A stretch of 64,000 bases of DNA from Coprobacter sp. (GTDB lineage Bacteria > Bacteroidota > Bacteroidia > Bacteroidales > UBA11471), in assembly GCA_017462265.1 (NCBI GenBank), contig JAFTRN010000042.1:1-64000 (forward strand). The letters run 5' to 3'. The notes beneath the pieces were generated by a model that worked only from the letters and a program-made list of their open reading frames with translations, was not told the DNA's origin and did not search any database. Shown piece after piece: positions 39,957-58,174 of this stretch; the stretch's first letter is position 1, and each line of letters begins with the position of its first letter. Both the position numbers and the translations under genes were made by a program.

Positions 39957-39978
39957 TAACTCTTTGTTATATAGCTCG

Positions 39979-40013
39979 ACCGGCAGCCCCTTGAGGGTTG
40001 CCGGTTCTTTTTT
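39979..40013 (+). terminator. Terminator after gapA
   Basis: ACCGGCA...TGCCGGT stem extended by GCCC/GGGT around a CTTGA loop, followed by a T run. Confidence 0.9.
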
Positions 40014-40179
40014 AAGGATATTCACATTCTATAATCTGAAATTGTTGATTTGATATTTATACGTTCGGGTGGCTTATTGGTTATTTGTTTAGATGTTTGG
40101 CGTAAAAGAAAGATTTTGACAACTTATTTTTCATAAGTCGAACTTTTGGATTTGGATATTGCCAGTTTAGATACAAATA

Positions 40180-40211
40180 TTTGAGATGTAACACTTTTTT
40201 ACTTATATTTG
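40180..40211 (+). promoter_or_regulatory. Promoter of the SusCD-ABC operon
   Basis: TTTG at 40180-40183, a 20-nt spacer and TATATTTG at 40204-40211: a full match to the Bacteroidetes consensus at ideal spacing. Transcription from about 40218 leaves a leader of about 24 nt before the ATG at 40242. It is the only promoter I can see for the next eleven genes. Confidence 0.75.
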
Positions 40212-40241
40212 CATGTCTTTTATCGAGAACCTAAACAGATA

Positions 40242-42707
40242 ATGAAAATAATATCTGCCCATAAGACGTGGATTGCTATAGGCCTGTTCGTTTGTGCCTA
40301 TACATTTTCTTTTGCGCAGAATAGTTTGCAAGTACCTCCTTCCGATACCATACCTACATATACAAATGTTTCCGACGATAGAGTGTTGTCGGGCGAGGAG
40401 TTGCGCAAAGTCAGCATCGGAAACTTGTGGAGCGCGATAGTCGCCCTCGAGCCTTCGCTGTTGTCGGGTATGGAGGCTCTTTATGGTGATATGCCGGGTA
40501 TGACGCCGAGCGGGATTGTACAAGGAACGCAAGCGTGGAGTATCGAAGGTGTCGCACAGTCATTCTTGTTGCTTGTAGATGGGACCGAAGTTTCCGATTA
40601 TCAATTCTCTTGCTTGAATATCAATGATGTGGAGCAGGTGATTGTGTATAAAAGTCCGGCATCACTTTCACGCCTTGGCATAGATGGCGGTTGCGGTGCT
40701 ATAGAGGTGATACTGCGAGAGCCCGAAAAGGGGAAGTTGCGTATAAACTATCTGTTCGATGCTCAGTTTCAGTCGGCCGATAAGGCGGTAAGACGAGAGT
40801 CGTCTTATGCAGGACTGTCGGGGCATAATTGGCTTGATGAGCCGTTGCGCATGGGTTTTGCTCATCGCCATAAACTCGACATCAGTGGTGGTGACGACTA
40901 TGTGCGATATAGTTTCTCGGTAGAGGGCGATCCGTCGGGGCAAGGCGTGATGAAAGACGACTACCACAAGACGCTCGGACTGAGCAACTATATATCTTAT
41001 CGAAAAAAGGCGATTTCTATTTCCAATCGGCTCTCCTTTTATCAGACCAAAAACAGTGCTTCGCCTTATGGTACATATGATTATTATCGGACACTTTCAC
41101 CGGAACTGATTCCGACCGGAAACGCGGGTACACCCCTTTCGTTGTTGCCCGACGGCTCGATAAATCCGTTGCATGAGGTATCGACCGGTAGTTTCAATCG
41201 GGATAAAATACATACTATACAAGACCATTTGCGGGTGGAAGTGGCGTTGCCTTGCGACCTATCCCTCGATGGCGCGTTTACCTTTATCCGGGAAACAGCA
41301 CGTAACAATCAGTATGTATCGCCCTCGTCGGGCCGTTATGATGATGTCGAGGCCGGAACATATACAGGTCGTTATGATATAACCCGCGATAATCAATTGT
41401 CGTTTGAGAGCGGTCTCGGACTGACCTATGACAAAACTATAAAATCGCATCATATACAGGCTTTGGGCGAAGTTTCGGTATATAGTAATAAGGTGTATGA
41501 TGAAACCTATGGTGGGGTGGGAATATCTACCGACCGCATGGCGCATATATCATTTACCAAGAGCTATAATATCGAAGAGGCTGCCGTGGCACACCGATAT
41601 TACAATAGGGATATATCGGGAAGATTGTCGGCCTCGTATTCCTATGCCGATCGTTATGGAGCGTCGGCAGGGGTGTCGTTTGAGAAATCGTCGTTGTTGG
41701 CGAGTGAGTCACGTAGGGCAATATTCTATTCTGTAGGTGCCTATTGGAATATTCATAAAGAGGCGTTTATGCACGATGTGGCTTTCGATCGACTGACGTT
41801 GTCTTTTACCCGAGGTACGAGCGGGGGTGTGGGATTTGACGATAACGCCTATACTGTGACGTACGATACGAATGTGGGTAATGAATATATCTACAATTAC
41901 TATCTGATAGGTTCGTCGATAGTGATGATGCCTAATAACCGATTGCGTCATTACACGGTGACACGCAACAATGTGTCACTTGCGGCGCAATATCGCGGCG
42001 TGTCGTTGTCGTTGCTGGGCTATGCCCATCGTACGACCGATATGTCTGTTATCAATCCGTTGCCTTTGGCGACGGGCTATCCCCACACGTTCGATAATGG
42101 CGGTGAATTGACCAATCGAGGCGTGGAATTGTCGGTAGGTGCTGATTTGTTACCCCGGGATAGAGTTTGGTCGTTATACTCCTATATGAGTCTTGCGCAC
42201 AATCGTAATTGCATAACGGAACTTCCGCTTTATTTTGCAAACCTTTATAATACTACGCTGGCCGATAATTATGCCGGTGTGGTATCAGATTATAAAACAC
42301 CCTGTTTTTTGCAAGAAGGTCACTCTGTAACGGAGTTGTATCGTCGCGATGAGGCCGGAACCCTTATCGCCATAGGTTCTACGTCGCCCAAAATACAGGG
42401 AAATTGGGGCATTTCGGCAGCCTATAAGCAGTGGCAAATGAATGTCGTAACGACCTTCTCGGCAGGAGCGGTGGCCTTCAATCCCGATGCAACATCGCCG
42501 GCCGATACGGAATTGAGTAGTAAGGACAATCGGTTTACTTTGCGTACTGTACAAATATCCTATACGTTTGCCCCGTGGAAAATATCCCGATTGCAGTTAT
42601 TGGCATCGGGTGAGAACTTGGCGCGATATACCTCGTCGGTGTATGGATTGGGACGTCTATACCCTTGCGCTCGAACATTTACTTTGTCACTCCGCTTACA
42701 ACTCTGA
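40242..42707 (+). CDS. SusC/RagA-like outer-membrane protein, reduced form
   Basis: 821 residues with a signal peptide (cut after FSFA). A plug-like region (about 45-155) includes LSGEELRKVSIGNL and LLLVDGTEVSDYQFS, then IDGGCGAIEVILRE. A beta barrel with many alternating strands follows and ends SLRLQL. It is about 200-300 residues shorter than a standard SusC, with no carboxypeptidase-like N-terminal domain, and I see no clear TonB box. It may be a partner or accessory channel for the full-length SusC two genes on. The start at 40242 was chosen because the upstream frame overlaps the promoter. Confidence 0.82.
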   Translation: MKIISAHKTWIAIGLFVCAYTFSFAQNSLQVPPSDTIPTYTNVSDDRVLSGEELRKVSIGNLWSAIVALEPSLLSGMEALYGDMPGMTPSGIVQGTQAWSIEGVAQSFLLLVDGTEVSDYQFSCLNINDVEQVIVYKSPASLSRLGIDGGCGAIEVILREPEKGKLRINYLFDAQFQSADKAVRRESSYAGLSGHNWLDEPLRMGFAHRHKLDISGGDDYVRYSFSVEGDPSGQGVMKDDYHKTLGLSNYISYRKKAISISNRLSFYQTKNSASPYGTYDYYRTLSPELIPTGNAGTPLSLLPDGSINPLHEVSTGSFNRDKIHTIQDHLRVEVALPCDLSLDGAFTFIRETARNNQYVSPSSGRYDDVEAGTYTGRYDITRDNQLSFESGLGLTYDKTIKSHHIQALGEVSVYSNKVYDETYGGVGISTDRMAHISFTKSYNIEEAAVAHRYYNRDISGRLSASYSYADRYGASAGVSFEKSSLLASESRRAIFYSVGAYWNIHKEAFMHDVAFDRLTLSFTRGTSGGVGFDDNAYTVTYDTNVGNEYIYNYYLIGSSIVMMPNNRLRHYTVTRNNVSLAAQYRGVSLSLLGYAHRTTDMSVINPLPLATGYPHTFDNGGELTNRGVELSVGADLLPRDRVWSLYSYMSLAHNRNCITELPLYFANLYNTTLADNYAGVVSDYKTPCFLQEGHSVTELYRRDEAGTLIAIGSTSPKIQGNWGISAAYKQWQMNVVTTFSAGAVAFNPDATSPADTELSSKDNRFTLRTVQISYTFAPWKISRLQLLASGENLARYTSSVYGLGRLYPCARTFTLSLRLQL

Positions 42708-42713
42708 TGTAGT

Positions 42714-44195
42714 ATGAAAAAAACGCTGTTATATATATTATCCCTGCTGTTGTTGCTTCCGGCCGTGGCTTGTAGCGATTGGTTCGATGCGCCATCGGAT
42801 GGTGAAACTATTCCCGACCATAAATATTTCAATGACGAGAACGCCTTTTACAACGCTCTTGTGGGGGTATATACTCAACTGCGTGATGCCGACCTGTATG
42901 GAGAGAATCTCACCTTGGGTATGCTCGAATATATGGGACAAAATATGGTGCCGGGCGACGACGAGACTCGCAGTATGAGCGAGTATGACTACGCCTCGTC
43001 CGCCGTGCAAGCCCGTATTTCCACGATTTTGCGGGAGATGTATCGCAACATTACCTCGTGCAATAGGGTCATCGACGAGATAGAGACTACCGATGTCGTG
43101 TTTTATAACACCGGACAGAAAGAGATTATCACCGGCGAATTGTATGCCTTGCGTGCAGCCCTGCATTTCGATTTGGTGCGCCTGTTCCATCCGGCTTATA
43201 GTGTAAACGCCTCTTTCGTAGGACTATCCTACGAGACCACTTTCGGTACATCGGTGGGCGCTCCGCTGACTACAACGGAGATACTCGACCTTATAATACA
43301 TGATATGACCTATGCGGCGACATTGCTACAAAAGTACGACCCTGTGGTGACGGGAAAAGGCAGCTATATCGCGTCGCCGGGAGAAATCGATAGTCGCACA
43401 CGCACGTTTTATCTCAATTATTATGCGGTGACGGCTCTGCTTGCGCGTATATATATGTATAAGGGCGATTATACCAATGCCTATATATATGCCGATGAAA
43501 CCTTCAAGCATATTCGCAATCTGGCGACAAACGCGCAGATATTCTACTACGTGTCGCCGGGTAAATACATCAGCGACTTCTGCTTCTCACGCGAGCATAT
43601 ATGGGGTATCGCATCACTGCCCGATGGTTTTACAGCACTTTCTGATACCTTGTTTTCCTCTCGCAAGATAAGGGTGCGTGCCGATGTGGCGGCGATCTAT
43701 CCCGATGTGAATGATACCCGTTTCAGAGAGTGGTTTACCCGCCAAAGCGATGCCTCCTATACATTACAACACAAGTTTGGCGCGAGCACCCTGCTTACCG
43801 ACTATGTAACCAATACCAGTGGTACGGCCACCGATCTGCCGGCACGTATTCCGGTTATAAAGATGGGTGAAGTGGCCCTTATTGCCGCTGAGTCGCTCAA
43901 TGAACAAAACAATCCCACCGAGGCAGCCGAATGGCTTATCGAGATGCAAAGCTCTAAGCGAAACAGCATCGTGACCGAGATGAAGACTGCCGGACAACTG
44001 ACGGTGGAGAATATACGTGAGGCTATTCGTGATGAGTATCACCGGGAATTTTTCGGCGAGGGTCAGCTCTTCTATTATCATAAGAGAATGAATGACAAGA
44101 CTATCTCCTCTTGTGTCGGCGAAGAAATCACAATGACTGCCGACAAATATACATTCCCGATACCGACTACAACATACAAGGAGGAGACTGAGTAG
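42714..44195 (+). CDS. SusD/RagB-family surface lipoprotein (first)
   Basis: 493 residues with lipobox Cys at about residue 20 (LPAVACSDWFD). The N-terminal helical TPR-like units and the block YFNDENAFYNALVGVYTQL are typical of SusD. Near the end EAIRDEYHREFFGEGQLFYY is the conserved family signature. SusD proteins form a lid on their SusC partner and capture ligand at the surface. It starts 6 nt after the reduced SusC and ends directly against the next SusC (no gap). Confidence 0.93.
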   Translation: MKKTLLYILSLLLLLPAVACSDWFDAPSDGETIPDHKYFNDENAFYNALVGVYTQLRDADLYGENLTLGMLEYMGQNMVPGDDETRSMSEYDYASSAVQARISTILREMYRNITSCNRVIDEIETTDVVFYNTGQKEIITGELYALRAALHFDLVRLFHPAYSVNASFVGLSYETTFGTSVGAPLTTTEILDLIIHDMTYAATLLQKYDPVVTGKGSYIASPGEIDSRTRTFYLNYYAVTALLARIYMYKGDYTNAYIYADETFKHIRNLATNAQIFYYVSPGKYISDFCFSREHIWGIASLPDGFTALSDTLFSSRKIRVRADVAAIYPDVNDTRFREWFTRQSDASYTLQHKFGASTLLTDYVTNTSGTATDLPARIPVIKMGEVALIAAESLNEQNNPTEAAEWLIEMQSSKRNSIVTEMKTAGQLTVENIREAIRDEYHREFFGEGQLFYYHKRMNDKTISSCVGEEITMTADKYTFPIPTTTYKEETE

Positions 44196-47100
44196 ATGAA
44201 GACGCGGGCACTATGTATTCTGTTGATAATCTTGTTGGGCGGACTATTCTTCCCGACAGGAGAGGCTTACGCGCAAAAATACATTTCGTTGTACGTACAA
44301 GACAAGCCGTTGGGCGATGCTCTTATAGCTGTGCGTAACTTGTCGGGGTATAACCTATATGTATCGCCGATGGTCGATGTGGAAAAACCGGTATCGGTGA
44401 CGGCCAATCATGTGGAATTATTGACACTTCTGAATTCGTTGGACCGCACCCTGTCGTATAAAATCATTGACAAAACGATAGTGATTACCCCTAAAAATCA
44501 CCCCTTATCAGACAACAGATTATATGGTGTGGTGGTCGATGAGGATAATCTCCCGGCCATAGGTGTAGTGGTGCAGTGTGCCGGTGGCGCGACTGTGACC
44601 GATGGCGATGGCCGCTTCGAACTGCCTCTTACAGCCGAGGCCGAAATGTTGTCGGTGTCGTTTATAGGCTATCGCAAAGAGCGTATATCCATCGATGGAA
44701 AACATTTTCATACCATACACCTTGTACCCGAAGCCAATGAGCTCGAAGACGTGGTAGTGACCGGATATGCTCCGAAAGCCAAAAACAGTTTTACCGGTAC
44801 GGCAGTGCAGGTAAAAGGCGAAGAGCTGAGAATGATTAATAACAGCAGTTTCTTTGATGCGTTGAAAGTCTTTGACCCCTCATTCAAGACGGTCGATACC
44901 CGGGGAATGTTTGGCTCGGATCCCAATCATGTGCCGTCGCAAATCGAAATTCGCGGACAAAACAGTTTCCCCGATATATCGGAAAGCAACCTCAAAACCG
45001 AGACCAGCCTGCCTGTCTTTATCCTCGATGGATTCGAGGTGAGCGTGGAAAAAATCTACGACCTCGATATGAATCGCATACAGAGTGTGACGATATTGAA
45101 AGATGCGTCGGCATCGGCAATCTATGGTTCGCGAGCAGCCAACGGCGTGATTGTTATCGAGAGCAAAAGTCCCGAGGCCGGCAAATTGCAGGTGAGTTAT
45201 TCGCTTACAGCCGGTATGCAGATTCCCGACCTTACCTCGTACAACCTGATGAATGCGGCAGAGGTGTTGGAGTTCCAGCAAGCCGCCGGTGTGTTCGATG
45301 CCTATGTGGCAGGACAAGACCCCGGTACTCGCCTTAACTCTTACAATGTGATAAAGAAGGAGATTATGAGCGGAACCGATACCTATTGGTTGTCGAAACC
45401 CCTTCGTGTCGGACTACAGCATAAACATTCCCTTATCATCGATGGCAGTGTGAACAATGCCGAGAAAGAAACAGGCAATGTGCGTTACTCGGTAAACTTG
45501 GCTTTCGGTCAGAATAATGGCGTGATGAGAGGTTCGGATCGTACGACCTACGAGGCCGGTACCAAATTGATATACAACAGCAAAAAGCTGTATGTTACCA
45601 ATGATTTGCAGTTCAGTATGGTCAATAGCAGTGAGTCGCCTTACGGAACCTTCTCGAATTACACACAGGCGTTGCCCTATCATCGCGAGAAAGATGAGAA
45701 TGGCGATTATTACCGCTATCTGTCGTTGGCCAACGTTGCTCCCGCAGGAATGAGTCTGGGTATATTGGCACAACAGCGCTCGCCAATGTATGAGGCAAAG
45801 TATCTCAATTCCTATTCGGTAAAAGAGAATTACAATATCAGCAACCGCACCAGCGTAAATTGGGAAGTGTTTTCCGACTTGCGTATTCGGGCCAATTTTG
45901 CCGTCAATTACGATGTGAATCGCACCGATGCGTTCGTGTCGCCATTGAGTTATACCTATACCAATACCAGCGACAACTCATCGACATCGCCGAGCGTATT
46001 ATATTCCCGGGGTAAATACAGCCTGAGTAATAGTAACTTGTTGGGTTACGATGGCAATATAGTCATATCCTACTCTCATTCGTTCGGGGTGCACGATTTG
46101 CAGGCGATATTGGGCGGAGAGGTAAGTCAGGACGATTACGATAGCGACGGATATAACCTGACGGGCTTTTTGGGCGATGCGCTCGACTATCTCTCGTATG
46201 GCATACAGTATGAGCTGTACGGCCGTCCGTCGGGTAGTGAAAACTTGGTGCGTAATGCCGGTGCGTTTACCAATATCAACTATTCATACGACAATCGTTA
46301 CCTCGTGGATCTTACCGGTCGCATCGATGGTTCATCGGTTTATGGAAAAAATCAGCAGACCGCGCCCTATTGGTCGGTAGGTTTCAGATGGAACGCGCAT
46401 AATGAGAAATTTTTGAAAGGTAATGAGATTGTGCAAAAGCTGGCCTTGCGTGCCAATATCGGAACGACCGGAAATCAGAATTATTCCAAAAATCAAGCGA
46501 CCAGTCTCTATACTTACCTTACCTCGGTGTATGGAGGCTATTTCGGAGCGTTGATAACGACCTTGGGTAATCCCGATTTGAAGGGGCAGCTCACCTTCAA
46601 TCGCAACATCGGTGTAGAAGGTACATTGTTCAAAAACAAACTCAACCTCGACTTCAACTACTATTACAACACCACAGAGGGCAACCTTACCGATATATCC
46701 ATCGCGCCCTCTATCGGCTTCGACTCGTACAAGACCAATATGGGCAATCTCACCAATCAGGGTGCGGAGTTCAGCATCAGTTATGTGCCTGTGCGCACAA
46801 AGGATATGACACTCAATTTCACGCTGAATGGCGCGCACAATAGCAATAAAATCACGAAAATATCGGATACGTTGCGCAAATACAACGAGCAGATAAGCGC
46901 CGAGGCCGAGGAGGGTACGGCCAATGTGTTCCTATTCAAGGAGGGCGAGTCGATGAATACTATCTATGCCGTACGCAGTCTCGGTATCGACCCCGGAACG
47001 GGTAAAGAAATATACCTTACCAAAGATGGCGAGAAAACCTACACTTGGAACTCGGTCGACCAAGTACCTGTGGGGGTGAACGAACCGACATTGCAGGGTT

Positions 47101-47534
47101 ATATGGGGGCGAATTTCAGGTACAAAGCTTGGGAGTTGGGCGCTACGTTCAATTACTCATTCGGAGCGGATAAATACAATTACACGCTGCACGAGAAGAT
47201 AGAAAATGTCGATTATATGGTCAATAACGACCGACGTGCATTGACCGAACGCTGGAAACAACCCGGCGATATAGCTCGCTATAAGGCGATAAACGATAAC
47301 AGTGTGACACGCTCTACCTCTCGCTTTGTGCAACGCGAGCGATTGCTGAGCCTCACCTCGGTGCGCCTGAGTTACACCCTGCCTCGGGAGATATTGCGAG
47401 GTAAAAGCCTTTCGATGTTGAAATTGGCGGTGACTTGCAATGAGATATTTTATTGTTCCACCATCAAGCAGGAGCGTGGATTGTCGTACCCGTTTGCCCG
47501 CTCGGTCAATTTCTCGGCATACATAAATTTCTAA
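44196..47534 (+). CDS. SusC/RagA TonB-dependent receptor with STN domain
   Basis: 1112-residue outer-membrane receptor. Order: signal peptide (to about residue 27), STN domain (about 28-105, ISLYVQDKPLGDALIAVRNL onward), carboxypeptidase-regulatory-like beta domain (about 108-175), a TonB-box-like stretch near VVVTGYAP, plug with FILDGFEVSVEKIYDLDMNR and AIYGSRAANGVIVI, then the barrel ending NFSAYINF. STN domains usually contact an anti-sigma factor of the FecR type, yet no such gene is visible here. Confidence 0.95.
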   Translation: MKTRALCILLIILLGGLFFPTGEAYAQKYISLYVQDKPLGDALIAVRNLSGYNLYVSPMVDVEKPVSVTANHVELLTLLNSLDRTLSYKIIDKTIVITPKNHPLSDNRLYGVVVDEDNLPAIGVVVQCAGGATVTDGDGRFELPLTAEAEMLSVSFIGYRKERISIDGKHFHTIHLVPEANELEDVVVTGYAPKAKNSFTGTAVQVKGEELRMINNSSFFDALKVFDPSFKTVDTRGMFGSDPNHVPSQIEIRGQNSFPDISESNLKTETSLPVFILDGFEVSVEKIYDLDMNRIQSVTILKDASASAIYGSRAANGVIVIESKSPEAGKLQVSYSLTAGMQIPDLTSYNLMNAAEVLEFQQAAGVFDAYVAGQDPGTRLNSYNVIKKEIMSGTDTYWLSKPLRVGLQHKHSLIIDGSVNNAEKETGNVRYSVNLAFGQNNGVMRGSDRTTYEAGTKLIYNSKKLYVTNDLQFSMVNSSESPYGTFSNYTQALPYHREKDENGDYYRYLSLANVAPAGMSLGILAQQRSPMYEAKYLNSYSVKENYNISNRTSVNWEVFSDLRIRANFAVNYDVNRTDAFVSPLSYTYTNTSDNSSTSPSVLYSRGKYSLSNSNLLGYDGNIVISYSHSFGVHDLQAILGGEVSQDDYDSDGYNLTGFLGDALDYLSYGIQYELYGRPSGSENLVRNAGAFTNINYSYDNRYLVDLTGRIDGSSVYGKNQQTAPYWSVGFRWNAHNEKFLKGNEIVQKLALRANIGTTGNQNYSKNQATSLYTYLTSVYGGYFGALITTLGNPDLKGQLTFNRNIGVEGTLFKNKLNLDFNYYYNTTEGNLTDISIAPSIGFDSYKTNMGNLTNQGAEFSISYVPVRTKDMTLNFTLNGAHNSNKITKISDTLRKYNEQISAEAEEGTANVFLFKEGESMNTIYAVRSLGIDPGTGKEIYLTKDGEKTYTWNSVDQVPVGVNEPTLQGYMGANFRYKAWELGATFNYSFGADKYNYTLHEKIENVDYMVNNDRRALTERWKQPGDIARYKAINDNSVTRSTSRFVQRERLLSLTSVRLSYTLPREILRGKSLSMLKLAVTCNEIFYCSTIKQERGLSYPFARSVNFSAYINF

Positions 47535-47538
47535 CGCT

Positions 47539-48981: not shown

Positions 48982-48993
48982 ACAAGGATTGGC

Positions 48994-49707
48994 ATGAAGA
49001 GGTACTTATATATCGTATTGTTGGTGTTTATCGCAGTGGCGTGTAAGGAGGATAAGCTCGACCTATATGAGGCGTCGCGTCCGGCGTTGAATATTGCCAA
49101 GGGCGATTTCAATCCCGGGGAATATCCCGAGGCGTATTCGTTCAACGCTTATTTTCTGGGGGTAGGAGCGGGCGATTATGTACTGCATATTCCGGTACGC
49201 TTGTCGGGGGTAATCGATTACGACCACGACCGCTACTATGAGATTGCTGCTGATGCCGATTCGAGCCGCAATGCCGTGAATGGCGTGCATTATACCTTCT
49301 CCACCGAGCAGGTATTTCGTAAAGGTTTGTATCAGGACACTATCGCTGTAACCATACATGTTGGGGCACTCAATACCGTCGATGATTATCGTATATGGCT
49401 CAAATTGCAGCCCGGTGAGACTTTCGATGCCGGTATTCCCGAGTATCAATATGTGGTGATAGATTTTATGAAAAATCTGAATTCCCAACCGGCTTTCTGG
49501 GAAAACAACAGTAAGTTGGCAAAGATTCCTTATCACCCCAAAAAGTGTGAGGTATTCCTTGAAATAAGCGGAATTACAGATCCCGACTGGACCGATGCGG
49601 GAGGAACCATACAACTCGAATATTGGATAAACCTCTGTAAACAATATTTCCTCGAAAATGAGATATACGACGAGGAGACAGGTAATCGTATCTATTTTGA
49701 CCTCTAA
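48994..49707 (+). CDS. DUF4843 lipoprotein
   Basis: 237 residues. Lipobox Cys at 17 followed by KED, which fits the Bacteroidetes surface-export signal for lipoproteins. The body is beta-rich (YVLHIPVRLSGVIDYDHDRY, VHYTFSTEQVFRKG) and is of the DUF4843 type, found next to SusCD pairs. No enzyme motif is visible. It is probably a surface-exposed binding or structural partner of the SusCD complex. Confidence 0.82.
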   Translation: MKRYLYIVLLVFIAVACKEDKLDLYEASRPALNIAKGDFNPGEYPEAYSFNAYFLGVGAGDYVLHIPVRLSGVIDYDHDRYYEIAADADSSRNAVNGVHYTFSTEQVFRKGLYQDTIAVTIHVGALNTVDDYRIWLKLQPGETFDAGIPEYQYVVIDFMKNLNSQPAFWENNSKLAKIPYHPKKCEVFLEISGITDPDWTDAGGTIQLEYWINLCKQYFLENEIYDEETGNRIYFDL

Positions 49708-49711
49708 AGTT

Positions 49712-51211
49712 ATGAGACGTATAATTTATACTATTTGCGCGATAATGACCATCAGTCTCGGGGCCTGTTTGCGGAACAAGGACAAGACCGCGACATGGGA
49801 CCCCGATCATGTAGAAGCCGTAACCGGTATCTCGGACGAGGGATATACCGTGTACTTGGGCGACCGATTCTCTTGCACTCCCGAGGTGCTATTCTCGGAC
49901 AGTACTCATGCCGATGACTATGAATATCGCTGGGTAATAGGTAATAGTGAGACTATAGGAGATAAACGCACCTTGGACTGGGAGATAGAGCTCCCCACGG
50001 GCTATAAACTCAATAATGCCATTCCCGGTGTCTTTGTGGTGCGCAACAAGGTGAACGAATTGGAATTTCGCCAGCCCTTTACATTGACGATACTTACGGG
50101 CTATACACCGACCTATATCGCTCTGTATGAAACACCCGAGGGTATGCTCGAATGGTCCTCGTTGCAGGGGGAGCCGCGAGAATTTTCCCGTTGGTTTGAC
50201 AATATGATAGATCGTGTAAATCACACTACGATACCGGGCCCGTTTGTCGGGGCGTTTAATTCTACCGATGAATTGGCGATTTTTACCGACTCACAACCCG
50301 ATTACGGCTATACGGTGAGTATGATCGACGCTGAAGAGGGTGATGATTTTGTAGCCAATGTGGGTGAAATTGTGGGGAGAATCTATGGTAGGGTGTATCA
50401 TGGCAGTGCCTCGCAACTCGATATTTCGAACGTCGTGTATGGGGTAGGGGCAAGTAAGTATCTGATAAGCAATGGTACGCTCCATGTTTTCAACGGCCTC
50501 GAAAAGCGCCTCCCGATGTATAACGAGGCTACTTATGTGAAAAGTCGTGACGTAGTGCAAGCCATATCGTCGAAACAATTCATGCGCTTCAAAAAGGCCA
50601 CTTTTGTGCGCCATACCGATAATCGTATAGGTTGCTTCCATGTGTATAACGACCAGATGGAGTGGGTGCAAGACGGGGAGAGTGTGTTGCAGTTGGATAC
50701 TTTATGCGGGGCCTTCACGCAATCGACCGGCGAAGGTTCGAACAAGCCCTATGATATATATCTTGTAGCCGGTGTAGCCGGTGGGTATGAAATGATACGT
50801 TTCCATGTGGATTATATAAAGACCACGGTACAACCTATCGTACTCGAAGAGCGATTTCCTATGCCGACCGAGTTGGTGGAGAGTGCCCGGTACTGGTTTG
50901 GCTCGTTCGGTGAGGAGTATGCTTTTTATACGACACGTAACGCCGTATATCGGTTTGACTATCACGACATGACCGCCTTTACCCCGGCCACGACACCTCT
51001 GATACAATTTGCCGACGATGTGGAGATCGTAGATATATATCCCTTGCAAGGCAGTACGTTCCGCGATGAGGACGATTGTACAGTCGCCTTCCTCTATAAC
51101 GCGCAGAGACAGACTACCACGTTGTATGTATATGACACGGTGACCGGTCGCAAACTGGCCGAATATTCCGATTTGCTGCCCGGAAAAGGTCTCTATTTTA
51201 CCAAACGCTAA
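49712..51211 (+). CDS. PKD-like family lipoprotein
   Basis: 499 residues, lipobox Cys near residue 19 (SLGACLRNKDKT). The N-terminal about 130 residues form one or two Ig/PKD-like beta domains (YLGDRFSCTPEVLFSDSTHA, YRWVIGNSET). The rest is beta-rich and resembles a propeller (repeated strand-turn units, for example GYEMIRFHVDYIKTTVQP). It matches PKD-like proteins that follow DUF4843 in SusCD loci. No catalytic residues recognised. The longer frame from 49658 overlaps the upstream gene and lacks a signal, so I start at 49712. Confidence 0.75.
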   Translation: MRRIIYTICAIMTISLGACLRNKDKTATWDPDHVEAVTGISDEGYTVYLGDRFSCTPEVLFSDSTHADDYEYRWVIGNSETIGDKRTLDWEIELPTGYKLNNAIPGVFVVRNKVNELEFRQPFTLTILTGYTPTYIALYETPEGMLEWSSLQGEPREFSRWFDNMIDRVNHTTIPGPFVGAFNSTDELAIFTDSQPDYGYTVSMIDAEEGDDFVANVGEIVGRIYGRVYHGSASQLDISNVVYGVGASKYLISNGTLHVFNGLEKRLPMYNEATYVKSRDVVQAISSKQFMRFKKATFVRHTDNRIGCFHVYNDQMEWVQDGESVLQLDTLCGAFTQSTGEGSNKPYDIYLVAGVAGGYEMIRFHVDYIKTTVQPIVLEERFPMPTELVESARYWFGSFGEEYAFYTTRNAVYRFDYHDMTAFTPATTPLIQFADDVEIVDIYPLQGSTFRDEDDCTVAFLYNAQRQTTTLYVYDTVTGRKLAEYSDLLPGKGLYFTKR

Positions 51212-51233
51212 TATACTAAACCTTAACAATATT

Positions 51234-52127
51234 ATGAACGAAACCAATCCAGTTATTGAATGTCGTAACCTCACTCATTATTATGGGAAAAAGTTGGTGT
51301 ACGAGAACCTGAACATTGTTGTCCCCGAAGGGCATATCATGGGCCTGTTGGGTAAGAATGGTGCAGGAAAGAGTACGACCATCAATATATTGAATGGATT
51401 TCTCGAACCGCGGGCCGGTAAATGTCTCATCTATGGCGAAGATACTCAAAATCTGTCGCCCGAGACCAAGAAACGTATCGGCTATCTCATCGAGGGGCAC
51501 ATACAGTATAGCTTTATGAATGTACACCAGATAGAGAAATTCTATTCGGGCTTTTATGAGAATTGGAAACGCGACGCCTATTGGGAACTTATAAATAGGC
51601 TGAAAATCACTCCTAAGCAACATATATCGACCATGTCGTGCGGACAACGTGCGCAGGTGGCTCTCGGGCTTATTCTGGCGCAAGATCCCGATTTGCTGAT
51701 TCTCGACGACTTCTCTCTCGGTCTTGACCCCGGTTATCGTCGGCTCTTTGTCGATTATATGCGGGAATATTGTAAGGCCGAGAACAAGACCGTATTCCTC
51801 ACCTCGCACATCATACAAGACATGGAACGCCTTATCGACGATGTGATTATAATGGACTATAATCGTATGTTGGTACAAGGCCCGGTAAAAGATTTTACCG
51901 ACAATTTCAAAGGTTTCTCGTTCGACCTCGATTGTGCCGATGTAGAATTTACCGAGCCCGAGGCGGTAAATATTGAGCATATCAACAATCACTACGAGTT
52001 CTATACCTATGCTTCGGAACAAGATGTAAAAGCCGTTCTCGAACGCAAGGGTGTGACTTATCACAATTTCACCCGATTGTCGCTCACTCTCGAAGATGCC
52101 TTTATCGGTCTTACCGGAAAATATTGA
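51234..52127 (+). CDS. ABC transporter ATPase with altered catalytic residues
   Basis: 297 residues. Walker A GKNGAGKS at 40-47, signature S135-CGQR in place of SGGQ, Walker B LLILDD at 154-159, D-loop GLDP, H-loop His192. The residue after the Walker B Asp is normally the catalytic Glu and here is Asp159, followed by Phe where Pro is usual. The C-terminal about 80 residues are an extra domain as in ABC-2-type export ATPases. It may hydrolyse slowly or act as a regulated switch. It serves the membrane proteins encoded directly downstream. Confidence 0.9.
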   Translation: MNETNPVIECRNLTHYYGKKLVYENLNIVVPEGHIMGLLGKNGAGKSTTINILNGFLEPRAGKCLIYGEDTQNLSPETKKRIGYLIEGHIQYSFMNVHQIEKFYSGFYENWKRDAYWELINRLKITPKQHISTMSCGQRAQVALGLILAQDPDLLILDDFSLGLDPGYRRLFVDYMREYCKAENKTVFLTSHIIQDMERLIDDVIIMDYNRMLVQGPVKDFTDNFKGFSFDLDCADVEFTEPEAVNIEHINNHYEFYTYASEQDVKAVLERKGVTYHNFTRLSLTLEDAFIGLTGKY

Positions 52128-52136
52128 TACTCTGTC

Positions 52137-52820
52137 ATGAAACCGATATTACATCTTTTCTATAAGGAATGGATAAAGACGCGCCTGAGCTTTATCTGCT
52201 CTTTGCTGGTGGGGATAGGGGTAGTGTTCTACATATTTATGATTGTAGAAAACAAGATGACTCTTACCGGGGCAAAGACCTACACGATGAACGTGTTGTA
52301 TAGTAATCCTCCGATTATATACTACTCCTTGTTGCGATATATACCCATACTGATAGCGATATGTGTGGGGGTATCGCAATATATGCCCGAAGTGGTGCAG
52401 AAGCGTATTCGCCTTACACTGCATCTCCCGCTCGATAATCGTCGCCTCTTCCTCTCGATGGAACTCTTTGGCTTGTTGCTTATAACGGTGGCCAATGTCG
52501 TGCTGTTCTCACTTTTCTATTGGAAAAACCACGCATTATTCCCTGCGGAGATTACACACCCGGTAGAAGCTACGGCTCTTGCCTGGTTTTTGGCAGCCTA
52601 TGTGGCCTATAATTATATAGCTATGACGGCTTTGGAACCCAATCGGGTACGACAAGTCGTATATGCTGTCACGGGTGTGGTATTGCTCACGCTCTATTTC
52701 CACGAAGTACCTTTCCATGGAGCTTATGCGGCATCGACACCAGTGCTTGCACTATTGGCGGTAGCGACTTGCCCGCTTATGTTGTTCAGCGGTTTCCGCT
52801 TCAATAAAGGAGAGAGATAG
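52137..52820 (+). CDS. ABC-2-like membrane protein, copy A
   Basis: 227 residues with about six predicted helices (about 17-37, 63-83, 103-125, 142-165, 172-190, 197-217). It begins MKPILHLFYKEWIKTR, an amphipathic start typical of ABC-2 type permeases. The cytoplasmic loop QYMPEVVQKRIRLTLHLPLD recurs almost unchanged in copy B (54069-54755), as does the ending SGFRFNKGER. This is a likely membrane partner of the upstream ATPase; the cargo is unknown. Confidence 0.75.
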   Translation: MKPILHLFYKEWIKTRLSFICSLLVGIGVVFYIFMIVENKMTLTGAKTYTMNVLYSNPPIIYYSLLRYIPILIAICVGVSQYMPEVVQKRIRLTLHLPLDNRRLFLSMELFGLLLITVANVVLFSLFYWKNHALFPAEITHPVEATALAWFLAAYVAYNYIAMTALEPNRVRQVVYAVTGVVLLTLYFHEVPFHGAYAASTPVLALLAVATCPLMLFSGFRFNKGER

Positions 52821-52821
52821 T

Positions 52822-54060
52822 ATGACACACAGAATATTACATATCATAGCCGTATTATTTACAGCTCTTGCGTTGACGTTGATTATCTCGCATGGGCGCG
52901 GACGTGCATCTATGTATGGCGATTATACCGATGTGGTGTATTCGGAGTTATTGCAAGATTTCATCGTCTCGACTTATGAACTTGAGGGCGATAAAGAGAA
53001 TCTGCAAATACATCGAGTGTATAGGAATACCCGAGGCGAGGAAATAGAGGCGTCGCTTATCGACTCGCTGTGCCCGCTGAATAATGCCTCTCAATTGGCT
53101 TTTGAGAGCCGTTTCCCGACAACCGTGTGTGGTGTGGCTGTGACGGCCCGAGAGGCCTCCGATGCCGTATATCAGCATCGAATAGTAGGCGAGGGTCTCG
53201 ATTACGGGCTTTACGACCTTATTGACGCGCATAGTTATCTGTCGCAACAGTTCGCGACCAAAGATTTGATGCGTTTCACCGATAAGGGGGTAGAGTTTAT
53301 ATTGCCCGAAACAAACAGGGTAGATGAGGAAAAGACCGCACTATTTAATACCGCCTTGCACGAGGCCGGTTTCTGCCCCGAAGAAACAGGAGTATGGAAC
53401 CCGATAAGTCGCACGGATATAGAGCGCTACGGTTTTTTTGTAACCGATGCAAACGGCTCGTTGTTCCGACTGTCGATGGTAGAGGGAAAACCGGTGGTCG
53501 AAAAGTTGCCACAACCAGCCGACAAGCAGATAAAACACATAAGTTTTGTCGATAGAGCAGACTATCTGGCATTTGTGGTGACCACCGATGGCGCTTGTTA
53601 TGTGCTCTCGCGGGAAGGGTATGATTACAGACAATTGCCATTGCCTTCACTGGGTGGGTATAGTGTAGAGTTGCAAGCCAATCTCTTGTACAATACGTTT
53701 GTATTGACGACCTCGGACAATGTACTCTATATTGTTCTCGATAAGGATTGGAATCCGGTGGCGCAATATGAGCGCGAGCGTAAATTTATGCGTCACGTCG
53801 ATTTGAAGCCTTATTATATGCCGGTGTTTATCTATGACACGACGCACGGCGGAGTTTCTATAGATTTCTCTCCGATAGGAAAATTTATGGTACTGAATCT
53901 GATATTGGCGGCAATAACTTTCTACATTCGTCGTCGCAACGGATATGTACCGGCCGTGCAGATAATAGATACATTGATAGTGGCCGTGTGGGGTCTTGTC
54001 GGTATGATTGCGGCGCTGGCTATACCCTACCGACGTGTAGATAAACAGCTTCTTAAATAA
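52822..54060 (+). CDS. DUF4857 membrane protein, copy A
   Basis: 412 residues. One N-terminal helix (about 5-24), a large extracytoplasmic domain (about 30-345) rich in beta strands, then two C-terminal helices (about 352-370 and 380-402). It belongs to the DUF4857 type, for which I know no function. It starts 1 nt after permease copy A and is repeated in the second module, so each permease seems to have its own DUF4857 partner. Confidence 0.72.
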   Translation: MTHRILHIIAVLFTALALTLIISHGRGRASMYGDYTDVVYSELLQDFIVSTYELEGDKENLQIHRVYRNTRGEEIEASLIDSLCPLNNASQLAFESRFPTTVCGVAVTAREASDAVYQHRIVGEGLDYGLYDLIDAHSYLSQQFATKDLMRFTDKGVEFILPETNRVDEEKTALFNTALHEAGFCPEETGVWNPISRTDIERYGFFVTDANGSLFRLSMVEGKPVVEKLPQPADKQIKHISFVDRADYLAFVVTTDGACYVLSREGYDYRQLPLPSLGGYSVELQANLLYNTFVLTTSDNVLYIVLDKDWNPVAQYERERKFMRHVDLKPYYMPVFIYDTTHGGVSIDFSPIGKFMVLNLILAAITFYIRRRNGYVPAVQIIDTLIVAVWGLVGMIAALAIPYRRVDKQLLK

Positions 54061-54068
54061 TTAAGACT

Positions 54069-54755
54069 ATGATACCATTACATATAAAACATCTTATATA
54101 CAAAGAGTGGATAAAAACGCGTTGGTATGCTACACTGGGGTTGATACTCACATTTGCCTTTTCCGTATATATGGCCATCGGTACGGTGCTGACGTTTCAT
54201 CACATGGACAGCGCTATGTATTACTCGATGCTGATGACGGGAAACATCTCGTTGTTTACTGCTCTTAAATTCAAATATTGGGCGTTGCTGGTGGCCCTGC
54301 TGATAGGCCTTCCGCAATTCTTGCCCGAGGTTTCTCATAAGCGCATACGTCTCACCTTGCATCTGCCTGTCGATACTACGACCATCGTCTATTCCACGGT
54401 GCTTTATGGCTTGATATTGTGCTTTGCCGTGTTGTTACCTGCATTGCTTGTAGTGCTGGTGACGCTGGTAGCAATGTTTCCAGCAGAGATAGTCGTTCCT
54501 ACGTTACAGACCATGCTTCCATGGCTGTTGGGGGGGATTACCGGCTATTTCTTTATTGCGATGATAGCCTTCGAGCCTATTGCTAAGTTCAGGTTTTTGT
54601 ACATCATCGCGGCCTATTTCATATTGCGATTTTTCTATATCTCGTATGGTGTAGGAAACGCGGTAACGGTCTATCCGCTATTACTTGTCATCACGATAGT
54701 AGCCGGACTGTCGGTACTTTATACGTCTTACCGATTCAATAAAGGAGCGCGCTGA
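54069..54755 (+). CDS. ABC-2-like membrane protein, copy B
   Basis: 228 residues, paralogue of the protein at 52137-52820. It shares HLIYKEWIKTRWYA at the start, QFLPEVSHKRIRLTLHLPVD in the loop, FPAEI before the fourth helix and SYRFNKGAR at the end. The two could form a heterodimeric membrane core with the single ATPase. It lies 8 nt after the first DUF4857 gene. Confidence 0.75.
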   Translation: MIPLHIKHLIYKEWIKTRWYATLGLILTFAFSVYMAIGTVLTFHHMDSAMYYSMLMTGNISLFTALKFKYWALLVALLIGLPQFLPEVSHKRIRLTLHLPVDTTTIVYSTVLYGLILCFAVLLPALLVVLVTLVAMFPAEIVVPTLQTMLPWLLGGITGYFFIAMIAFEPIAKFRFLYIIAAYFILRFFYISYGVGNAVTVYPLLLVITIVAGLSVLYTSYRFNKGAR

Positions 54756-54757
54756 TT

Positions 54758-55975
54758 ATGATAAAGATTGTAAGAATACTACTGATACTTGTTACCATCT
54801 TTACGATGGCATTTTATCTTCCCTCGACCTATCGTAAGGCGGTGGAGAAACGTCCTATGAAGACGATGATATATTACAGTGAGGTGTCAAACGACTTTGT
54901 CATAGCTCGCGAGACAGGCGACTCACTCGATACACAGGCGGCTATGCGCTATTATACCCCGGCCGGTACTCAGCTCACGGAAGAGGAGTATATGCGACTG
55001 TTGCCGTTTAATAACCGACGTAAGTTGAAACTTATGGGCAATATGCCCGACTCGTTGCATGGTGTGGCACTCACTACCGATGTGCTGAAAAACGTGAAAC
55101 GTAGTATGTTGTTGGCCCCTCGTTCATCGGAATATCACCTCTATCCGCTATTTGAGTCGGCCCCAGAGCGTCTTGGCGTATCACTTCCCGATGATTTGTT
55201 CCGCTTCACAGGCGATGGGATAGAGTTTGTCGATTGTAAGACCGGCGATATACTTGCCGAGAAGAGCGCTCGATTCCGTTCGGCGATGGCGGCTTGTGGT
55301 TTTACGGCGCCGGCTCGCGATGTGTATGGAATACCCTCGGTCTTGAAACGATGGGACAGCGGATATTTTGTGGTCGATGTCACCGGTGGACTTTATCACT
55401 TGATGATGGTGAAAGGTGTACCTTTCTGCCGTAAAATCGACACGGATATAGCGATAAAAAATATGAAGTGTCATACCGACGAGGAGGTGTTTGCTCATAT
55501 TTTCGATACTCAAAATCGTCTCTATGTGCTCACGACCGATTACACCATAAAACCTCTCGAAACCGATGTGTGTAACGGACGTTTCTTTATGACCTCCAAC
55601 TGTTTCGCTCGTACCTATAAGACGAGCGAGGCCGACAGCAGTATTATGTATGTATTCTCCCCCGATTTCGAACCGTTGGGCCGTTATGCCGAGGTGGTCG
55701 ATCATTACAGTCATACCGATGAGGCGAAATGGGAACAGCGTATATTCCCCTTCTCGGTGATGAAAACACCGGGTTATGCTCATTTTATACCGCTATTTAA
55801 TGCGCCTGCGATGTTCTGGCTTACCAATCTGCTATGCGCTATACTATGGGTAGGTCTCAAGGTGTATCACCGTCGTCGCTTGACTCGTCCTGAGAATATA
55901 GCCGACTTCGTGGTCGTGCTTCTGGCCGGTGTATATGGACTGATGGCGGTACTACTATACCCCAACCGTAAATAA
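54758..55975 (+). CDS. DUF4857 membrane protein, copy B
   Basis: 405 residues with the same layout as copy A: N-terminal helix, a roughly 320-residue extracytoplasmic domain, two C-terminal helices. Shared landmarks with copy A are FRFTGDGIEF / MRFTDKGVEF, the GYFVVDVTGGLYHLMMVKGV / GFFVTDANGSLFRLSMVEGK block and the YVFSPDFEPLGRYAE / YIVLDKDWNPVAQYE block. Overall identity looks low, so the duplication is old. Confidence 0.72.
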   Translation: MIKIVRILLILVTIFTMAFYLPSTYRKAVEKRPMKTMIYYSEVSNDFVIARETGDSLDTQAAMRYYTPAGTQLTEEEYMRLLPFNNRRKLKLMGNMPDSLHGVALTTDVLKNVKRSMLLAPRSSEYHLYPLFESAPERLGVSLPDDLFRFTGDGIEFVDCKTGDILAEKSARFRSAMAACGFTAPARDVYGIPSVLKRWDSGYFVVDVTGGLYHLMMVKGVPFCRKIDTDIAIKNMKCHTDEEVFAHIFDTQNRLYVLTTDYTIKPLETDVCNGRFFMTSNCFARTYKTSEADSSIMYVFSPDFEPLGRYAEVVDHYSHTDEAKWEQRIFPFSVMKTPGYAHFIPLFNAPAMFWLTNLLCAILWVGLKVYHRRRLTRPENIADFVVVLLAGVYGLMAVLLYPNRK

Positions 55976-56013
55976 AATTTAAACAATTTCTAACCTCTAA
56001 ATACTATACAATT

Positions 56014-56889
56014 ATGGAAACAACAACGAAACAACCTCAACGCTCGTTTATAGGAATTGCGGCGTTTATGATTGTACTATTTACAATGCCATTGGGCCAT
56101 GCTGCGATGATAGCCATGGAGAATGTGCTCGAAGGTTCGGCCTTGACGCTCGGAGCCTTCTTGCTCGGCCTCATCGGCGCCGCATGGACTATATGGGGTT
56201 TCTACATGAAGAGCGAGAATGCCGCTACATTTGCCGGCCTGATGGGCGGATTGCTTGTGTGGACCGGCTGGATAGAATTTACATTTGTGTATTATGCACA
56301 TCGTTATAATGTAGCCCCGCTCACTGATGCTGCCGGTGAAATCGTTACCAAACCCGAGTATTTGATTATGATGTCGTCAATAGGCTTCTTGGCGATAGTG
56401 ATGCTGTTTTATACATTCAGTGCTCGCACCAAGTGCGTATTCTTCTGCTGGCTACAAAAGAAATTGCGCATCGACCGTCATCAAGACTCGATGCAGGTGG
56501 TAACACGCAATAACTCCATGACTACGTTTATGGAAATCTCCGTACTGTTGTGGGTGAGCTATCTGGTGCTGATGTTTGCTTACGACGATCATCTGTTGGG
56601 CGATCGTCACCCCGTTACCGCCTTTATCGCATTTGGTAGTCTTGTATGGTCGGGCTATCTCTTTGTGAAACTCATGAAAATACGTAAAATAGGCTATGCC
56701 ATACGATATGCGATACCTACGGTTATTATATTCTGGACTTTCGTAGAGATATTGGGCCGCTGGAACCTCTTCAGTGAGATATGGACCGAACCGGGTAAAT
56801 ACAAAGTAGAGATGATTACCATGTTTGTGGTATTTATTCTCTTCTCGGTATATCTCTTTATACACAAGAGACATCATACTCAAAAATAA
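56014..56889 (+). CDS. Polytopic membrane protein of unknown function
   Basis: 291 residues with about seven helices (roughly 12-32, 43-63, 70-92, 112-135, 170-190, 200-218, 230-248, plus a last one at 265-283). A cytoplasmic basic loop KKLRIDRHQD lies near 149-158. I do not recognise the family and see no catalytic motif. It starts 38 nt after the second DUF4857 gene and is the last gene before a new promoter, so it probably belongs to the same envelope system. Confidence 0.7.
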   Translation: METTTKQPQRSFIGIAAFMIVLFTMPLGHAAMIAMENVLEGSALTLGAFLLGLIGAAWTIWGFYMKSENAATFAGLMGGLLVWTGWIEFTFVYYAHRYNVAPLTDAAGEIVTKPEYLIMMSSIGFLAIVMLFYTFSARTKCVFFCWLQKKLRIDRHQDSMQVVTRNNSMTTFMEISVLLWVSYLVLMFAYDDHLLGDRHPVTAFIAFGSLVWSGYLFVKLMKIRKIGYAIRYAIPTVIIFWTFVEILGRWNLFSEIWTEPGKYKVEMITMFVVFILFSVYLFIHKRHHTQK

Positions 56890-56894
56890 AACAC

Positions 56895-56902
56895 TATCTT
56901 TG
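56895..56902 (+). promoter_or_regulatory. Promoter -7 box for the LRR protein
   Basis: TATCTTTG, an exact match. The predicted start near 56909 puts the 30-bp palindrome inside the leader. Confidence 0.6.
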
Positions 56903-56919
56903 CAAAAACATCTAATAAT

Positions 56920-56949
56920 AAGGCACACGCCCATATGGGCGTGTGCCTT
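56920..56949. repeat. Perfect 30-bp palindrome in the LRR gene leader
   Basis: Left arm AAGGCACACGCCCAT and its exact complement, centre at 56934/56935. As RNA it gives a strong hairpin ending 15 nt before the first ATG. There is no T run after it. It might terminate the upstream operon, protect the 5' end or control translation, or be a protein-binding site. Confidence 0.75.
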
Positions 56950-56964
56950 GAATACAAAATCATT

Positions 56965-58020: not shown

Positions 58021-58033
58021 TGATATATCGATA

Positions 58034-58074
58034 AAGAAAGGCTGTCACATCATAGGGAGTGAACAGCCTTTCTT
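58034..58074 (+). terminator. Terminator after the LRR gene
   Basis: 12-bp stem AAGAAAGGCTGT / ACAGCCTTTCTT with a 17-nt loop; T-poor on its 3' side. Confidence 0.75.
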
Positions 58075-58174
58075 ATATTCCGACGGAGCCATAAATCTGG
58101 TAATACAAACTTGTATATAGGTATAAAACCATATTTCTATAATTGTTTCTAAATGAAAAATATCCGTAATAATA

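Follow-up and report, generated by a model that had tools for sequence, protein, structure and literature searches.

We propose, with a probability of about one half, that twelve genes of a Coprobacter sp. form a single mobile unit spanning both membranes, in which a NosDFY-like ABC complex is combined with SusC/SusD outer-membrane transporters and handles a ligand that is probably metal-containing. The genes lie in a 64,000-nucleotide stretch (positions 1-64,000 of contig JAFTRN010000042.1, assembly GCA_017462265.1, genome G000), referred to here as the window. A first-pass annotation had spoken of one envelope-spanning machine. From that description the conserved union of the two halves, the ABC-2-like fold and the anchored periplasmic DUF4857 part have stood; co-transcription of the genes, physical coupling of the ABC complex to SusCD and the nature of the ligand are what we infer.

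A twelve-gene cassette with a SusC/SusD outer-membrane half

A check of gene calls, families and coordinates gave twelve genes, all on the plus strand and separated, in gene order, by 6, 0, 4, 12, 4, 22, 9, 1, 8, 2 and 38 nt. The first-pass annotation had the genes, strands, families and gaps of 0-38 nt right, and it listed twelve genes under a title that counted eleven. The promoter that it placed at 40180-40211 on the plus strand is an exact match to the Bacteroidales-type consensus (TTTG-N20-TATATTTG), which occurs three times in the 64 kb against 0.63 matches expected, and two relatives of the same genus, G068 and G296, have the TTTGC element and the leader GAGAACCTAAACA in the corresponding position ahead of SusC1. 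A hairpin search placed the strong terminator of the GAPDH gene (39978-40006) before this promoter. At the other end, a gene for a BspA-type LRR secreted protein (PF13306; 56965-58020, plus strand) is a probable passenger of the cassette. It follows the last gene, TM291, in G296, in Coprobacter secundus and in G068, where the contig end cuts it, and it may be a thirteenth member. In the window, where a perfect hairpin of 15 bp (56920-56949) and also a TATCTTTG element intervene between TM291 and the LRR gene, it is possibly a separate transcript. The cassette holds no glycosidase, peptidase or periplasmic binding protein, as had been claimed, and a Pfam scan of its twelve genes, extended to the LRR gene that follows, found no carbohydrate-active enzyme; it is therefore not a standard polysaccharide utilisation locus.

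The first gene, SusC1 (40242-42707, plus strand), encodes a short SusC-like TonB-dependent transporter of 821 aa that lacks CarboxypepD and STN domains and has a Plug domain just above the cut-off (PF07715, 25.3 bits). Its score of 208 bits against TIGR04056 is under the cut-off of 368, and by that model it is SusC-like and not a full SusC/RagA member, though a SusD gene adjoins it. This gene, SusD1 (42714-44195, plus strand), encodes a lipoprotein with PF07980 and PF14322 above cut-off and the lipobox AVAC. SusC2 (44196-47534, plus strand) is a full-length SusC/RagA transporter (TIGR04056, 553.8 bits against the same cut-off) and, with the adjoining SusD2 lipoprotein (47539-48981, plus strand; PF14322, PF07980), makes up a SusC/SusD (RagA/RagB) transporter. 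A DUF4843 lipoprotein (48994-49707, plus strand; PF16132, 40.9 bits, above cut-off) and a PKD-like (PKD_2) lipoprotein (49712-51211, plus strand; PF16407, 46.8 bits, above cut-off; lipobox SLGAC) complete this half; the start of the latter was chosen from its orthologues, in place of 49658. A sequence search returned no solved relative of the PKD-like protein, and the papers that mention DUF4843 were unrelated by title and abstract. Identities to the orthologues in G068, G296 and C. secundus, respectively, are 58, 58 and 42% for SusC1, 63, 63 and 55% for SusD1, 76, 76 and 68% for SusC2, 73, 73 and 60% for SusD2, 78, 78 and 54% for DUF4843, and 72, 72 and 58% for the PKD-like protein.

The order SusC2-SusD2-DUF4843-PKD_2 is shared with two other units of the same genome (L167 on contig C1 and L168 on contig C11). 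Compared with these, the cassette adds the short SusC1-SusD1 pair in front and the ABC complex behind; an ABC complex of this kind was absent from the operons of the five PKD_2 units examined (L167-L171). The sigma/FecR control of such units is kept in the C. secundus cassette, where an ECF sigma factor and FecR gene lie directly upstream of SusC1 and the STN domain of SusC2 is intact (5e-13), an arrangement that suggests signalling control of one operon. The label STN-SusC, given to SusC2 earlier, holds for C. secundus; in the window the N-terminal STN is degenerate and falls below the Pfam cut-off (E 0.06). The idea that the window's cassette has its FecR/sigma pair at another place in the genome was rejected: the best match, C1:24145, is the FecR of L167. 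SusC2-SusD2 belong to the same superfamily as RagAB and the BT2264-type SusCD systems, although RagAB as described has no ABC partner and the cassette has one.

An inner-membrane half with a NosY-like predicted fold and a duplicated permease-DUF4857 pair

The ABC ATPase (51234-52127, plus strand; PF00005) carries the motifs GKNGAGKS, SCGQR and LLILDDFSLGLD, the last of which has Asp where the catalytic Walker-B Glu is expected. LDD[FY]S occurs in the examined ATPases of this family, which makes the Asp characteristic of the family and not a sign that the window's copy has decayed. The protein is 88, 88 and 85% identical to its orthologues in G068, G296 and C. secundus. Permease A (52137-52820, plus strand) was modelled with AlphaFold2 (pLDDT 75). 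The top eight Foldseek matches of the model were all NosY (probability 0.96-1.00), and the best Z score was 13.7, to NosY 7o0z_E (rmsd 5.3 over 209 residues); the structural matches from Foldseek and VIA comprised NosY, ABCG, ABCA, CcmB, PmtCD and LptF permeases. With a six-helix permease fold in the model and a separate PF00005 ATPase, the inner-membrane half is, by predicted fold, a type V (ABC-2-like) transporter.

Each permease is followed by a DUF4857 protein, and both copies score well above the PF16149 gathering score of 25: DUF4857-A (52822-54060, plus strand) at 184.5 bits and DUF4857-B (54758-55975, plus strand) at 239.8 bits. The A protein has one N-terminal transmembrane segment, a beta-rich periplasmic domain and two C-terminal transmembrane segments, and in the model of the B protein the transmembrane segments are at 2-20, 349-370 and 378-400 with beta strands at 36-313. 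The DUF4857 model was built from six sequences and is of modest confidence (pLDDT 72); its best matches in the PDB were beta-propellers (Z 9.2, rmsd 5.2, 161 residues), all of them generic, with no specific relative. A distant relative, G543, has the permease and DUF4857 fused in one protein. We take DUF4857 to be, on this modelling, a membrane-anchored, beta-propeller-like periplasmic part of the ABC complex.

Permease B (54069-54755, plus strand) is placed as a paralogue of A by the permease tree, and B-type sequences are 31-35% identical to permease A. The A and B permeases form sister groups (92/74), each of them at 100/at least 99, and the DUF4857 tree likewise has A and B as sister groups, each at 100/100. 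The trees indicate that permease and DUF4857 were duplicated in tandem as a pair whose divergence predates the species split. Sister pairs of that age fit a heterodimer of permeases A and B, which the duplication probably serves. The final gene, TM291 (56014-56889, plus strand), encodes a polytopic membrane protein with no known domain, matching nothing in Pfam or NCBIfam; it is 73-75% identical in the three relatives and a sequence search returned no solved relatives. It was rejected as a functional key to the cassette, its homologues elsewhere being stand-alone genes in unrelated settings.

NosDFY is the ABC complex for maturation of N2O reductase (structures 7o0y, 7o0z and 7qba). It has in common with the cassette the permease fold as modelled, a separate large periplasmic subunit and a small ABC-2-class ATPase. 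The periplasmic part of NosDFY is the NosD beta-helix; that of the cassette is probably different, the anchored DUF4857, whose moderate-confidence model resembles beta-propellers. The cassette also has two different permeases and Asp for the Walker-B Glu. The Pfam scan of the cassette genes found neither nosZ nor nosL.

Mobility of the cassette and its relation to iron-starvation loci

The same twelve genes occur in the same order in G000, in G068 and G296 of the window's genus, and in C. secundus, which belongs to another family, with 40-88% protein identity. They occupy three chromosomal sites: between GAPDH and S24 in the window, at tRNA-Gln/TyrS in G068 and G296, and at sigma/FecR in C. 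secundus. At the window's site the segment 40014-58116 (no strand assigned), 18.1 kb in length, stands in place of about 0.5 kb in sister species: in G068, G296, G266 and G297 the GAPDH side and the S24/trmB/mrp side of the site lie directly next to each other, and their homology to the window stops at about 40013 and restarts at about 58117. The three different sites and the empty site in sister genomes indicate that the cassette is horizontally mobile. No integrase was found among the genes of 40014-58116, and a tyrosine recombinase at the window's site was seen only in G173. A scan of genome contigs with two short peptide patterns of DUF4857-A, which was not exhaustive, gave hits in C. secundus and a single MAG and nowhere else.

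The first-pass annotation had proposed a survey of whether the ATPase-permease-DUF4857 block stays with SusCD/DUF4843/PKD-like genes. It does so, collinearly, in the four species with the cassette. Outside the cassette the block is found in single copy. Of the 35 other Bacteroidales loci, 32 have it beside a non-SusC TonB receptor (TBDR) and DUF4876, and it is never with SusD; the single-copy module lies beside TBDR-DUF4876 in another class too. The locus BT3625-BT3633 of Bacteroides thetaiotaomicron, one of the TBDR-DUF4876-DUF6850 kind, shares with the cassette an ATPase with LDDFS.GLD, a permease of about 224 aa and DUF4857, identically ordered, and its TonB receptor unit directly adjoins the ABC genes, as the outer-membrane unit does here. 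This locus is induced 37-128 times by iron depletion, and PG1019-22 is induced 21-214 times (PMC10434189). Against the TBDR-DUF4876-DUF6850 loci, the receptor unit of the cassette consists of two SusC-SusD pairs with DUF4843 and PKD_2, the permease-DUF4857 pair is duplicated and TM291 is added; none of the four species has DUF4876, DUF6850 or the non-SusC TonB receptor in its cassette. Judged by gene content and order, the SusCD/DUF4843/PKD unit replaces the TonB receptor unit. G000 also has a TBDR-DUF4876-DUF6850 locus without the ABC genes, so receptors of this type are able to function in its absence, an observation that counts against our reading.

A working model, its alternatives and what the cassette may mean

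In the arrangement that we favour, the two SusC-SusD pairs and the DUF4843 and PKD-like surface lipoproteins would bind a ligand too large for porins and import it in a TonB-driven manner. At the inner membrane, two copies of the one ATPase would drive a heterodimer of permeases A and B with DUF4857-A and -B and, as in NosDFY, ATP-driven motion of the periplasmic domains would handle the imported ligand by release, transfer or translocation, with no classical binding protein involved. The ligand most likely contains iron or another metal, by analogy with the single-copy module, whose setting is the iron-starvation TBDR/DUF4876 loci. Counting against this model are the other outer-membrane partner of the module to which the iron data refer, the relation of SusC2 to RagA, and the lack in the cassette of PepSY, which is present in many single-copy loci.

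RagA is an oligopeptide transporter, and the cassette could be a RagAB-like oligopeptide or a glycopeptide importer, with SusCD taking in peptides and the ABC complex carrying them across the inner membrane or easing the periplasmic load. RagA (6sli) is the closest solved structure to SusC2, and L167-L171 have SusC2- and SusD2-like genes without evident glycosidases (judged without Pfam). We consider this unlikely: the match of about 190 bits extends along part of the protein and cannot fix the ligand, transporters of the type V ABC fold are mostly exporters or do mechanical work, and the single-copy ABC module is tied to iron-starvation systems, not to peptide SusCDs. That the halves are two independent systems which merely share a mobile, co-regulated cluster is decidedly unlikely. 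Mobile segments can carry unrelated cargo, and each half exists alone elsewhere (PKD_2/SusCD without the ABC, and the DUF4857 ABC without SusCD), but the twelve-gene order is fixed down to 40% identity, the gaps in the window are short, and the SusCD unit holds the very place of the TonB receptor unit.

Very unlikely, in our judgement, is a transporter paired with immunity, in which the ABC complex expels a harmful compound, such as an antimicrobial peptide or toxic metal chelate, for which SusCD is the way in or the target. The permease fold also matches the ABCG, ABCA and PmtD exporters, the best NCBIfam model for the ATPase is PmtA (below cut-off), and the cassette is mobile; against this, genes for a bacteriocin or for immunity are missing from it, the single-copy module responds to iron lack and adjoins receptors rather than resistance genes, and DUF4857 is not known from export systems. 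It is a long shot that the NosDFY-like complex powers the outer-membrane SusCD and lipoproteins mechanically through DUF4857, as a second energy source besides TonB that has spread as a cassette among gut Bacteroidales. Chance adjacency of the halves, the case that the first-pass annotation named for its own refutation, is negligible and was rejected, because the order is conserved in three further species and across two families; nothing was found in its favour.

Gut Bacteroidota take in nutrients mainly through SusCD transporters, and the periplasmic takeover of the cargo of these transporters is mostly obscure. A mobile unit of SusCD and NosDFY-like ABC genes would bear on this directly: the cassette genetically binds SusCD to a defined ABC machine of the inner membrane, at the place that a TonB receptor has in iron-starvation loci, and so offers a concrete, testable case for hand-over from the outer to the inner membrane. 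It also offers a starting point for assigning functions to the DUF4857, DUF4843 and PKD_2 families, and it shows that a machine of this kind is passed on whole from one species to another.

Organisation and transcription of the cassette

Re-annotation of the window found every gene where the first-pass annotation had placed it; all of the genes that it listed are present, but they number twelve and not the eleven that it had counted. The cassette runs on the plus strand from the best start codon of its first gene (40242) to 56889, in the order SusC1, SusD1, SusC2, SusD2, DUF4843, PKD-like lipoprotein (start at 49712, set by orthologs), ATPase, permease A, DUF4857-A, permease B, DUF4857-B and the polytopic membrane protein TM291, with intergenic gaps of 6, 0, 4, 12, 4, 22, 9, 1, 8, 2 and 38 nt. 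A strong terminator hairpin ends the upstream GAPDH gene (39978-40006) and is followed by an exact match (40180-40211) to the Bacteroidales promoter consensus TTTG-N20-TATATTTG, which occurs three times in the 64 kb against an expectation of 0.63. All twelve genes are likely to be co-transcribed on a single transcript. Downstream, perfect hairpins of 15 bp (56920-56949) and 12 bp (58034-58074) lie 5' and 3' of a BspA-type LRR gene; the corresponding gaps in relatives are short (25-28 nt) and have no 15-bp hairpin.

Conservation, duplication and movement

DUF4857 was the bait for the genome search, so its presence is preselected and it is the other cassette genes that carry evidential weight; it was found in 35 of 295 genomes of the order and three of seven in the genus. 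Among the neighbourhoods fetched, the complete cassette is present, its gene order unchanged, in two other species of the genus (G068 and the uncultured Bacteroidales MAG G296) and in Coprobacter secundus strain 177 (G166, contig C22); the C. secundus and G296 copies are the named loci L123 and L124. Identities to the window proteins in G068, G296 and C. secundus, respectively, are 88, 88 and 85% for the ATPase, 76, 76 and 68% for SusC2, 74, 73 and 73% for TM291, 63, 63 and 55% for SusD1, and 51, 50 and 40% for DUF4857-A. The distribution is sporadic: three of seven species in the window's genus and one of five in that of Coprobacter. TM291 homologs lie directly 3' of a GAPDH gene in two other genomes (L102, L103) and are otherwise stand-alone genes in varied settings.

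In trees, permeases A and B are sister groups (support 92/74), as are DUF4857-A and -B (88/89), these relations having moderate support and long branches; each A or B group is itself supported at 100/at least 99 and covers both genera, and thus the permease-DUF4857 pair was duplicated as a unit before the species split, with both copies retained. The ATPase is single-copy despite this duplication, and an obligate permease A/permease B heterodimer would be the simplest reading.

The cassette is flanked by GAPDH and S24/trmB genes in the window, by tRNA-Gln and TyrS in G068 and G296, and by ECF sigma factor and FecR anti-sigma genes in C. secundus. The GAPDH-S24 site is cassette-free and only about 0.7 kb long in G068, G296 and the sister genomes G266 and G297. 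Because homology to these empty sites ends at about 40013 and restarts at about 58117, we interpret the intervening 18.1 kb, in which the BspA-type LRR gene also lies, as a replacement-type insertion in the window's lineage; the window's genome is 79% complete, and the window is nonetheless unbroken across both junctions. No integrase is present among the cassette genes. A sister genome, G173, carries a tyrosine recombinase at the same site (L184 2124-3386, minus strand), which may therefore be an insertion hot spot.

Usual partners of the two halves

It had been proposed that the SusCD and ABC halves belong together: they stay together in G068, G296 and C. secundus, but not at the 35 other ABC-module loci of the order, all of which lack SusD, DUF4843 and PKD_2. 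In 32 of these 35 the ATPase-permease-DUF4857 trio adjoins DUF4876 and a TonB receptor that is not of the SusC type, in most cases together with DUF6850 and often with PepSY (exemplar loci were Pfam-checked, and the remainder assigned by their resemblance to these exemplars); among the three exceptions is a 4.3-kb contig. The same company is kept in another class (L172). Conversely, no DUF4857-type ABC was found at the SusC-SusD-DUF4843-PKD_2 units examined in G000 (the window's genome), G059 and G106, most of which are accompanied by sigma/FecR genes. Since the trio normally accompanies a TonB receptor and SusCD units elsewhere lack such an ABC, the SusCD unit occupies in the cassette the normal place of a metal-type receptor unit. 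A less likely alternative is that the two halves are independent cargo. G000 also has a TonB receptor-DUF4876-DUF6850 unit without an adjoining DUF4857 ABC (contig C5; L198 4839-10732), and G106, a member of the order, has 28 PKD_2 matches, the units read (e.g. L169, L171) being repeats of sigma/FecR-SusC-SusD-PKD, two of them in tandem.

On iron depletion BT3625-BT3633 of B. thetaiotaomicron, a locus with this company, rises 37-128-fold, and the DUF4876/receptor locus PG1019-22 of P. gingivalis 21-214-fold (PMC10434189). In a search that covered literature other than subscription papers and preprints, a single paper was found to name DUF4857, and it concerns the single-copy locus; no description of the present SusCD-ABC cassette was found.

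The ABC complex, and the signalling and possible role of the cassette

The top eight Foldseek matches of the permease A model (pLDDT 75) are all NosY, the best structural match being 7o0z_E (Z 13.7, rmsd 5.3, 209 residues), followed by ABCG, CcmB, ABCA and PmtCD (Z 9-12). On this model a type V fold is well supported, and permease A seems slightly nearer to NosY than to other type V permeases. In the DUF4857-B model (pLDDT 72) a single membrane helix precedes, and two follow, a beta-rich domain that is similar to generic beta-propellers (Z scores reaching 9.2). Direct support for DUF4857 as the partner of the permease comes from G543, in another part of the phylum, where the two are fused in a single 680-residue protein (L174 5006-7048, minus strand); next to that gene are genes for TonB receptors, a cytochrome c-like protein and PepSY. 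The DUF4857-linked ATPases examined (window 51234-52127; L037-L074; L172-L174) read LDD[FY]S.GLD and not LDE, with Asp in place of the Walker-B catalytic Glu, and nearly all have an SCGQR-like signature; the substitution may mean slow hydrolysis.

In C. secundus, ECF sigma and FecR genes lie directly 5' of SusC1 and the rest of the cassette, and the STN domain of SusC2 is intact (E 5e-13). The window's genus has neither sigma nor FecR at the cassette locus and its STN is degenerate (E 0.06 and 0.0014; coordinates for the sigma/FecR/STN observations are L118 4504-6341, minus strand, L123 1266-1640 and window 44196-44545), as would be expected if this lineage had lost trans-envelope signalling. 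A functional tie between SusC2 and the promoter of the whole block is also suggested.

The content, order, conservation, movement, duplication and folds of the cassette are matters of observation; as to its function, peptide import is a less likely possibility, and so is export or immunity. The reading that we propose is metal-related: the SusCD pairs and lipoproteins would bring in a large ligand, probably iron- or other metal-containing, and a heteromeric NosDFY-like ABC would handle it in the periplasm. NosDFY itself has a role in assembly of the copper centre of N2O reductase (PMC7558416), and the cassette ABC would be like that system and not a member of it.
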